This document shows positions 971 through 10,847 of a DNA stretch of 10,847 nucleotides, piece after piece (the stretch's first letter is position 1; every line of letters starts with the position of its first letter). Source of the stretch: an uncultured Clostridia bacterium (GTDB lineage: Bacteria; Bacillota; Clostridia; Oscillospirales; Acutalibacteraceae). The notes beneath the pieces were generated by a model. The model was not told where the DNA came from and did no database searches. It saw only the letters and a list, made by a program, of their open reading frames with translations. Made by a program: the position numbers and the translations under genes. Location: positions 1 through 10,847 of the forward strand of contig CAMCIX010000026.1 in assembly GCA_945875045.1 (NCBI GenBank), given 5' to 3'.

Positions 971-998
971 GTAGGGGAGGGTCTCTGTGCCCTCCCCT
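971..998 (+). repeat. REP-like palindrome R3, intergenic copy of the RAYT-gene repeat
   Basis: Begins GTAGGGGAGGG and closes with CCCTCCCCT, giving a 9-bp perfect stem (973-981 with 990-998) and an 8-base loop TCTCTGTG. The first 26 bases are nearly identical to two elements inside the RAYT gene: 25/26 to the copy at 8757-8782 (read on minus) and 24/26 to 8596-8621. No T-tract follows. It shares the GTAGGG foot with R1 and R2 but has a different stem and a longer loop. The whole 788-1043 gap between the convergent genes carries only these repeats, plus a small imperfect inverted repeat at 792-805. Confidence 0.75.
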
Positions 999-5559: not shown

Positions 5560-6003
5560 TTATTCCTTATCGCTGTCGCAATCACAGCAATCGTCGTCAC
5601 AGCAATCGTCGCAATCGCAGTCAAAATCAAACTCAAGCTCGGTGCCGCAGTTAGGGCAGGTCATACCCTCGTTGTCGAGCATTTCCTCGTCAAGATAAAT
5701 GGTATCGTGGCAGGCGGGGCACTCGATTTCGTAAACCTCGTCGTCGCAGTCGCAGCAATCGTCACAGTCGCAGTCGTCATCATCGCCGTAGATTATGTCC
5801 TCAACGGTGGAAAGATCCTCGTCAACGGCGTCAATCTGCTCCATAAGCTCGTCACAGCCGTCCTCGATTTCGCAAATTTCAGAGGTAATGTCCCCTAAAA
5901 GGTCGATAACCGCGGCAAGGATTTTGCCCTCCTTTGTGGTCTCGTCAAGGTTAAGACCCTCTGCTAAGCCCTTTATATAAGCAATCTTTTCACAAATATC
6001 CAT
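5560..6003 (-). CDS. CD1247-type protein: helical N-domain, zinc ribbon, Asp/Cys-rich tracts
   Basis: Predicted 147-residue cytosolic protein. Residues 1-70 are an acidic helical domain (MDICEKIAYIKGLAEGLNL), which I recognise as the CD1247 N-terminal domain named after a Clostridioides difficile locus. A single zinc ribbon follows, with CPAC at 95-98 and CPNC at 116-119. It is flanked by two extreme Asp/Cys tracts: residues 74-88 hold five Cys and residues 126-143 hold seven, and both contain CDCDDCC. ATG 6003 follows GGGAGG 9 bases upstream. The gene starts 21 bases after efp and ends at a strong terminator, so it is probably the second gene of an efp transcript. Its role is unknown. The extra cysteines suggest metal binding, but that is inference. 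Confidence 0.85.
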   Translation of the reverse strand: MDICEKIAYIKGLAEGLNLDETTKEGKILAAVIDLLGDITSEICEIEDGCDELMEQIDAVDEDLSTVEDIIYGDDDDCDCDDCCDCDDEVYEIECPACHDTIYLDEEMLDNEGMTCPNCGTELEFDFDCDCDDCCDDDCCDCDSDKE

Positions 6004-8416: not shown

Positions 8417-8896
8417 TTATTCCGTAAAAAAGCAATCCTCATTCCACTTTTGCGGGTTGGTATCGATGTAATTCCAAATCTTTAAGTAATCGCCTTCGTT
8501 ACGGATAATATGGTCGTGAAATGAGCGCTGCCAAAGTATTTTTCCGTATCTATGCGTTGTGAACGATTTAAAATTACCAATTATATCGTAAATTTGTAGG
8601 GGAGGGTCTCCGCGCCCTCCCGTTTGATTTGAAATAAGTAAATGTATATGATTCGGCATAATTACGAATTTATCAACCGATATGTTATCGTAATTACGGG
8701 CAATATATTTAATTGACTCCTTTACGGCTTCACCGATTGGTGTTAGCTTTATTATCGGGAGGGCGCAGAGACCCTCCCCTACAATGTCACATAAAATATT
8801 TTGCTTTTGATGGGTGCATACTGTAATAAAATACGAGCCCTCGCCGCTATAATCATAATTAATTAACCGCGTCGGCTTGCGTTTGGGTAAATTCAT
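8417..8896 (-). CDS. REP-associated tyrosine transposase (RAYT) with two REP-like inserts
   Basis: Predicted 159-residue Y1-transposase-like single-strand endonuclease (TnpA_REP family). The N-terminus YDYSGEGSYFITVCTHQK matches the family. The HUH motif is His83-Ile-His85 in FVIMPNHIHLLIS. The C-terminus has WQRSFHDHIIRNEGDY and WNYIDTNPQKW, where Tyr143 is a candidate nucleophile. RAYTs nick single-stranded REP hairpins next to a GTAG foot and are thought to spread REP sequences. Oddly, the frame contains two copies of the 26-base palindrome also found at 971-996, in opposite orientation. They encode VGEGLCALP (39-47) and GGRGDPPLQ (93-101), both in loop-like positions around the catalytic core. 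The gene appears intact. It starts 21 bases after the pyk stop with a poor ribosome binding site and shares the terminator at 8365-8401, so it may be expressed weakly by read-through from pyk. Confidence 0.88.
   Translation of the reverse strand: MNLPKRKPTRLINYDYSGEGSYFITVCTHQKQNILCDIVGEGLCALPIIKLTPIGEAVKESIKYIARNYDNISVDKFVIMPNHIHLLISNQTGGRGDPPLQIYDIIGNFKSFTTHRYGKILWQRSFHDHIIRNEGDYLKIWNYIDTNPQKWNEDCFFTE
8596..8621 (+). repeat. REP-like palindrome inside the RAYT gene, copy B
   Basis: A 26-base unit on the plus strand, antisense to the RAYT gene. It starts GTAGGGGAGGG and ends CCCTCCC; stem arms are 8600-8606 and 8615-8621 and the loop is TCTCCGCG. It is 24/26 identical to R3 at 971-996 and 25/26 to copy A. 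Read in the gene's frame it gives residues 93-101 (GGRGDPPLQ). Confidence 0.85.
8757..8782 (-). repeat. REP-like palindrome inside the RAYT gene, copy A
   Basis: The same 26-base unit on the minus strand, sense to the RAYT gene; stem arms are 8757-8763 and 8772-8778. It is 25/26 identical to both the intergenic copy R3 and copy B. In frame it encodes residues 39-47 (VGEGLCALP). It is inverted relative to copy B, with 135 bases between them. Confidence 0.85.
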
Positions 8897-10802: not shown

Positions 10803-10847
10803 CTGTCTCTTATACACATCTGACGCTGCCGACGATATGCAGTGTGT
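10803..10847. other. Illumina Nextera adapter contamination (not genomic)
   Basis: Bases 10803-10821 are exactly CTGTCTCTTATACACATCT, the reverse complement of the Tn5 mosaic end used in tagmentation. GACGCTGCCGACGA (10822-10835) is the Nextera i5-side adapter. TATGCAGT (10836-10843) is the reverse complement of the S506/N506 index ACTGCATA, and GTGT (10844-10847) starts the P5 segment. This stretch should be trimmed; genomic DNA ends at about 10802. Confidence 0.97.

Follow-up and report, generated by a model that had tools for sequence, protein, structure and literature searches.

Repetitive extragenic palindromes (REPs) and their RAYT (TnpAREP) transposases have been described in several arrangements. 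According to Nunvar et al. 2010 (PMC2817692), a canonical REPtron (REP-rayt-REP) invariably has its ORF between two inverted REPs. The tnpAREP genes of subclass 2.4, equivalent to RAYT group 4, carry in-frame internal REPs in addition to flanking ones, generally between the HuH and Y motifs, and encode proteins in which NH[IFV]H, WQ and YIxNNP motifs occur and the region from the HuH strand to alphaC is variable (Quentin et al. 2018, PMC6006769). In-frame REPs inside RAYT genes were therefore already reported in 2018 and are not new as such. The E. coli TnpAREP (4er8; PMC8266576) is a group 2 enzyme with bulged-stem REPs; its residue K82, in helix alpha3, is reported to make a specific contact to a REP base, and Q95 and R104 to be among the residues contacting the GTAG foot. 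Finally, the Rickettsia RPE elements are in-frame, translated palindromes that proteins tolerate (Di Nocera et al. 2013, PMC3733652). For RAYTs in general, enzyme and target have to be matched by indirect means, which hampers the study of what these proteins do and of how each selects its REP.

The locus described below resembles each of these systems in part. It has the motifs, the variable region and the in-frame REPs of subclass 2.4, but flanking REP pairs are absent from the 78 examined genes with both copies inside, and its REPs form a matching pair that brackets the HuH motif and tracks helix alpha3 in identity, rather than insertions between HuH and Y. As in the canonical REPtron, there are two inverted REPs per RAYT, RAYT/REP coevolution and dispersed matching REPs; here, however, the REPs lie inside the ORF instead of flanking it. 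The E. coli enzyme has the same HuH and tyrosine core, and its helix alpha3 falls on the segment that we call C1, whereas 4er8 is without the stretch encoded by the second REP. The RPE elements, unlike ours, lie in unrelated host genes that stand in no enzyme-target relation to the palindrome. In the parts of the literature covered by our search, we found no mention of a fixed inverted pair bracketing the HuH motif, nor any account of such a pair trading places with flanking REPs or being tied to helix alpha3.

A RAYT gene with two REPs in its reading frame

The window, that is, the whole stretch of DNA analyzed, is the 10,847-nt contig C26 (CAMCIX010000026.1) of the 1.7-Mb, 285-contig assembly GCA_945875045.1 from an uncultured Clostridia bacterium, rated 85% complete. 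Its terminal segment, 10803-10847, resembles what we take to be a Nextera sequencing adapter, and the last bases are probably not genomic. The features discussed below are as follows.

8417..8896, minus strand: RAYT (TnpAREP) coding sequence, 159 aa, stop codon included; from the ORF list, Pfam, NCBIfam and the match to 4er8
8757..8782, minus strand: REP copy 1 (site 1), sense in the gene; its GTAG foot is Val39-Gly40 and, with the next base, it encodes VGEGLCALP (residues 39-47)
8642..8650, minus strand: codons of the HIH motif (residues 83-85), lying between the REPs; both histidines, H83 and H85, are invariant across 66 proteins
8596..8621, plus strand: REP copy 2 (site 2), antisense relative to the gene; translated as GGRGDPPLQ, approximately residues 93-101
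8534..8593, minus strand: segment C1 (residues 102-121), the counterpart in the alignment of E. coli TnpAREP helix alpha3; varies in step with REP identity
8564-8566, minus strand: S111 codon, aligned with K82 of 4er8, within segment C1
8468..8470, minus strand: codon of Y143, presumably the catalytic tyrosine, at the start of YIDTNP; invariant in 66 proteins
971..996, plus strand: dispersed copy of the window REP, outside the gene; longest stop-to-stop frame across it 52 aa

The RAYT ORF lies between seryl-tRNA synthetase-like and pyruvate kinase-like ORFs (neighbors named by eye). It scored above the Pfam Y1_Tnp cut-off (27.8 against 23 bits) and matched NCBIfam REP_Tyr_transpos at E 1.6e-18, yet with 67 bits remained below the curated cut-off of 80, and a profile of 66 relatives found 4er8 ('TnpArep', E. 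coli) at E 1.8e-12. The protein has a Y1 HuH core with the HUH motif and a YIxxNP-type tyrosine motif. We also found NHIH, WQ and YIDTNP, the last having T where the subclass 2.4 consensus has N (relatives have YIENNP or YIDNNP), as well as the in-frame REP insertions of that subclass. In the window as a whole, no known RNA family reached its gathering score, and a 147-aa ORF at 5560-6003 (minus strand) is Cys/Asp-rich, with CD repeats and, by eye, a CPxC-like zinc-ribbon look.

The original prediction was that the 26-base palindrome at 971-996 recurs twice within the RAYT gene, in frame and in both orientations, while the HIH and YIxxNP motifs are kept, and this was borne out. The figures given for identity to 971-996 (24/26 and 25/26) are right, and the copies at 971-996 (+), 8596-8621 (+) and 8757-8782 (-) all fit the pattern GTAGGGGAGGGTCTCYGYGCCCTCCC with zero mismatches, where 0.00 such places were expected from 200 shuffles. 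Inside the gene, the copies are the arms of a 29-nt inverted repeat; they are 97% complementary and separated by 133 nt. The repeat is also dispersed, as had been supposed: the pattern has 14 places in the assembly (13 exact and one with one mismatch), of which 2 are in the RAYT gene and 12 elsewhere, so that absence from the rest of the genome, which would have counted against the prediction, is not what we observed. The same pattern read backwards, used as a control, has no place in this assembly. The window gene has no flanking copies of this REP, the only matches in the window being the two in-gene copies and the one 7.6 kb off.

Longest stop-to-stop frames were checked at 10 of the 14 places; the nine of these outside the RAYT gene were all in frames of 125 aa or less, and three more outside places, which are pair partners 46 nt from checked ones, fall outside this count. 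On three contigs of the assembly there are inward-facing, REPIN-like pairs of the window REP, 46 nt apart start to start, and on two further contigs there are heterodimers of it with a related REP. Derivation of the REPIN spacers from the RAYT gene was considered and rejected, as the 20-nt spacer of the dispersed pairs was not seen in the gene (by eye only). Near the REP at 971-996 we noted two other GTAGGG-footed palindromes, at 869-892 and 908-931, with their feet facing each other. This second palindrome type recurs, intact or diverged, beside the window REP in loci L005, L013, L014, L016 and L018; the REP and the second palindrome type together are a composite, BIME-like repeat.

The REP pair among relatives of the gene

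Relatives were drawn from 60 genomes, 25 of which had a match, and from the best 80 of at least 498 confirmed loci, and are mostly from Clostridia. Of 113 loci profiled, 112 had a hit, and 103 genes, the window gene included, were kept after one duplicate, repeat loci and truncated or low-scoring genes had been dropped. With a detector that requires a GT[AG]G-like foot and a fixed orientation, we observed a REP hairpin at both sites in 81 of the 103 genes, a proportion that describes genes near the window gene and not all RAYTs; 4 genes had a REP at site 1 only, 11 at site 2 only, and 7 at neither. Synonymous codon shuffles that preserved the protein yielded both sites in 1 of 2060 cases, which, together with the 0.00 expectation given above, rules out a chance origin of the pair. 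In the 81 genes, the pair brackets the catalytic HIH segment. The site-1 foot is in the same codon phase (GTA GGG, Val-Gly) in 79 of the 81, and REP length, which ranges from 23 to 27 nt, is equal at the two sites in 80 of 81. Among the 7 genes in which none was detected, inspection of the sequences indicated a pair in reverse order in L112, a single sense copy after HIH in L120, and one REP at a third in-frame place in L115.

The two copies within a gene resemble each other. Copy 1 compared with the reverse complement of copy 2 gave a mean score of 20.2 within genes and 8.4 between genes, and the own-pair score exceeded that of all 200 synonymous shuffles in 88 of 103 genes. The own partner was the best match in only 46% of genes, because relatives share REPs. 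By single linkage at 4 mismatches, which produced one broad cluster, both copies fell in one cluster in 80 of 81 genes.

The REP pair arrangement is thus general among the sampled relatives, and not peculiar to the window gene. Most of these relatives carry REPs of other sequence at the same two sites, from which we conclude that the arrangement is old; the original suggestion of an insertion into the window gene in particular is not supported in that form. Self-recognition, also suggested originally, is a fair inference, given the match to dispersed genomic REPs, the location in length-variable parts of the protein and the constraint on the DNA described below. As a whole, the interpretation first offered is partly supported.

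We compared REPs inside genes with REPs outside them. With both copies inside and no less than 300 nt of sequence on either side, 78 genes qualified for this comparison, and none of them had a flanking inverted pair of hairpins within 500 nt. Any outside REP-like hairpin within 500 nt was found in 22 of these 78 (7 of 78 by a stricter count of matching copies within 400 nt), in 7 of 12 genes with one copy inside, and in 5 of 7 with none detected inside, one of which (L121) has a classical flanking pair; 22/78 against 12/19 for the others gives a Fisher p of 0.007. Eight more distant loci were varied. In L130 (viral contig) and L134 (Leptolinea plasmid), REPs flank the gene on either side and are missing from its interior. 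The single palindrome of L133 (Spirosoma plasmid) is downstream, and of the two REPs of L135 (Monoglobus plasmid) one is internal and the other sits at the upstream limit of the match. The pair is inside the gene in L129 (viral contig, 43% identical), and no convincing REP was found at the gene in L131, L132 and L136.

On these comparisons of sequence, one REP pair seems to have shifted from the flanks of the gene to two of its loops. The loop positions rest on alignment to 4er8, which stops short of site 1; both sites are length-variable in the alignment, and site 2 lies within an insertion relative to 4er8. We lean towards the view that the window gene represents an internalized REPtron, a RAYT of group 4 (subclass 2.4) in which the two inverted REPs would have left the flanks for the coding sequence. 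The direction from outside to inside is unrooted, and the reverse move may also fit these data.

Constraint on the in-gene REPs

The features of in-gene REPs described here show that they are maintained as DNA hairpins, as judged from comparisons among genes. Where members of a set of five genes with one REP type share a residue, the codons were identical in 156 of 160 cases inside REPs and in 475 of 849 outside (gene pairs, which are non-independent), whereas freely varying synonymous DNA had been named at the outset as a sign of ordinary protein conservation. In 26-nt REPs, stem positions were paired in 259 of 280 cells at site 1 and 251 of 264 at site 2, compared with column-shuffle maxima of 213 and 198. 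Double-change cells numbered 60 and 63, against maxima of 28 and 27 in 500 column shuffles, a control that leaves shared ancestry in. REPs differ between genes and match within a gene, with compensatory changes in their stems. In many relatives, the 26-nt REPs repeatedly have G opposite A, or A opposite G, at stem pair 7, close to the loop, which is reminiscent of the bulge that E. coli REPs are reported to need.

Could the peptides be what matters, the DNA repeat being incidental? REP-encoded residues are indeed more conserved than the rest (0.90 against 0.70 in 120 listed close homologues, a difference that selection by shared words may favor). Against this stand the frozen synonymous positions, the rarity of both sites in the codon shuffles, the copies outside genes, and the observation that from one REP type to another the encoded peptides are replaced entirely but the palindrome persists; we have rejected ordinary protein conservation on these grounds and give it almost no credence. 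V39-G40 illustrates the point. It is invariant in an alignment of 22 proteins (all REP-bearing loci from the 60-genome search), but is in neither the invariant nor the 90% list of the 66-protein set, and its apparent invariance in 22 relatives is due to the constant codon phase of the site-1 foot. What appears to be a conserved protein motif can thus belong to the DNA, and the target of an enzyme can leave its mark on the sequence that encodes the enzyme.

REP identity, the protein and the host genome

For the 81 genes with a pair, we compared REP distance with distances of protein segments from which REP codons had been removed. The partial Mantel correlation was 0.26 for C1, the segment after REP copy 2, and 0.15 for M, the segment between the REPs, values that 0 of 200 permutations reached in either case; for the N-terminal and C-terminal (C2) segments there was no correlation (-0.01 each). 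The C1 and M correlations persisted when four residues adjoining the REPs were trimmed, and when the set was reduced to 56 genes. At matched N- plus C-terminal distance (0.25-0.45), C1 identity was 0.53 for pairs of genes with similar REPs (90 pairs) and 0.23 for those with different REPs (490 pairs). Recent block recombination was rejected as the source of this link, since C1 synonymous identity in same-REP pairs is not raised (0.49 against 0.55).

The column most strongly linked to the REP was S111, which adjoins the nearly invariant K110; N68, in segment M, came second. When only genes with distant backbones were compared, the nearest REP predicted residue 111 in 64 of 80 cases, against a background of 0.19; under stricter distance limits the values were 50 of 72 and then 32 of 54, with N68 tying at the last. 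Sorted by REP loop, in classes chosen after the data had been seen, residue 111 was Gly in 8 of 8 genes with the 3-nt loop C[ACT][TG]TG, Ser in 13 of 13 with CTTG-type loops, Tyr in 6 of 6 with short GTTTCC-like loops, and Met in 5 of 5 with TTCACGAA. Ser was also found in 13 genes with other loops, an apparent link of Arg with CGAC-type loops was seen by inspection only, and one of five REP-class patterns matched no gene. In the profile alignment, counted by position, S111 falls on K82 of 4er8, and the invariant Q123 and R132 fall on Q95 and R104, so that the foot, which is constant, would face a constant part of the protein and the stem, which varies, a variable one. By these alignments, REP identity and the helix encoded directly behind copy 2 vary together, most at the residue aligned with K82.

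It might be argued that the REPs are old insertions in tolerant loops, without function, and that the link to the helix reflects common descent only. The length variability of the sites, with site 2 an insertion relative to 4er8, agrees with such a reading, and an independent-pairs test on the tree, which had 0 or 1 usable pair per trait, was underpowered, so that shared ancestry stays a partial alternative for the REP-helix link. The relatives on viral contigs (4) and plasmids (4) were too few for an out-of-sample test of the residue-REP relation. However, the N- and C-terminal segments, which have the same descent, show no REP correlation, and the frozen synonymous positions and compensatory stem changes also argue against this reading, which we consider very improbable.

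We also examined how in-gene REPs correspond to REPs of the genomes that carry them, and dispersed REPs of the host were often a match. Exact places of the in-gene REP in its own genome, in-gene copies included, numbered 22 in Gemmiger formicilis, 8 in Ruminococcus flavefaciens, 41 in Flavonifractor sp. An10 and 39 in Chakrabartyella piscis; these four REPs had 0 exact places in the other five genomes searched with the same pattern. At 1 to 3 mismatches, the R. flavefaciens REP had 15 places in Anaerosolibacter, the Flavonifractor REP 23 in Chakrabartyella and 3 in Gemmiger, and the Chakrabartyella REP 20 in R. flavefaciens. Within one genus, type-D REPs had a mean of 12.6 places outside the gene in the five genomes with a type-D RAYT or fragment, and 0.8 in the other 20, among which is counted G028, with a very short RAYT fragment beside its one type-D place. 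Two observations run against this correspondence and against an internalized REPtron: type-C REPs occurred in seven of 25 genomes in which no type-C RAYT was found, and G029 (type A), G008 (type B) and G011 (type C) had no place beyond the in-gene pair at the mismatches allowed.

The persistence of a matching pair in these last three genomes agrees with autoregulation, by which the hairpins would be kept as sites where RAYT attaches to the gene or mRNA encoding it and so restrains its own expression, the spreading of REPs being secondary. So does the predicted stability of the in-gene hairpins in the transcript, with RNA energies near -16 kcal/mol. Yet one site would suffice for this purpose whereas an inverted pair is the rule, and exchange with flanking REPs suggests an ordinary REPtron role; from the sequence data at hand, we think autoregulation unlikely as the main explanation.

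The same three genomes, which hold the in-gene pair only, speak against recurrent overwriting, by which dispersed REPs would replace in-gene copies through gene conversion or REP-to-REP insertion, so that in-gene identity would reflect the current REP population and not selection. In favor of overwriting, the in-gene heterodimers of L021 and L052 use the same two REP subtypes as the dispersed heterodimers of the window genome, and the REPs of L051 and L053 differ between the two sites. On the other hand, asymmetric, site-specific loop variants are common to related genes (L019/L049, L066/L078, L086/L105 and L027/L044), which favors inheritance, and REP type tracks helix alpha3. Overwriting appears to us less probable again than autoregulation, though not negligible.

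Under the reading that we prefer, an internalized REPtron, the function kept by selection is most likely the physical linkage of enzyme and substrate, which local self-binding may accompany. RAYT would bind the in-gene hairpins while its own gene is single stranded, for example on the lagging strand, and the inverted order would give one usable REP per strand. Recognition of the constant GTAG foot would fall to the conserved residues Q123 and R132, that of the variable stem and loop to helix alpha3 (S111 and its neighbors). Target and reader, being in one gene, would travel and change together, and a transferred RAYT could bring with it the seeds for a new REP family. Each such gene would state its own presumed target, in two copies. 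The window protein has at least 2509 homologues at E <= 0.001 (all homologues, REP-bearing or not), from whose sequences a protein-DNA recognition code could be learned. We are evenly divided on the fuller proposal that the gene combines reader and target in one self-contained unit (REP1, HuH segment, REP2, reading helix) in which specificity would shift by concerted change of the REP pair and alpha3, mainly at the K82 equivalent, each gene being a self-labeled enzyme-substrate pair whose recognition code may be readable from sequence alone.

One minor observation concerns the Chakrabartyella piscis chromosome (G084 C1), in which the segment 846288-847193 contains five exact REPs, all in one orientation, at steps of ~220 nt.
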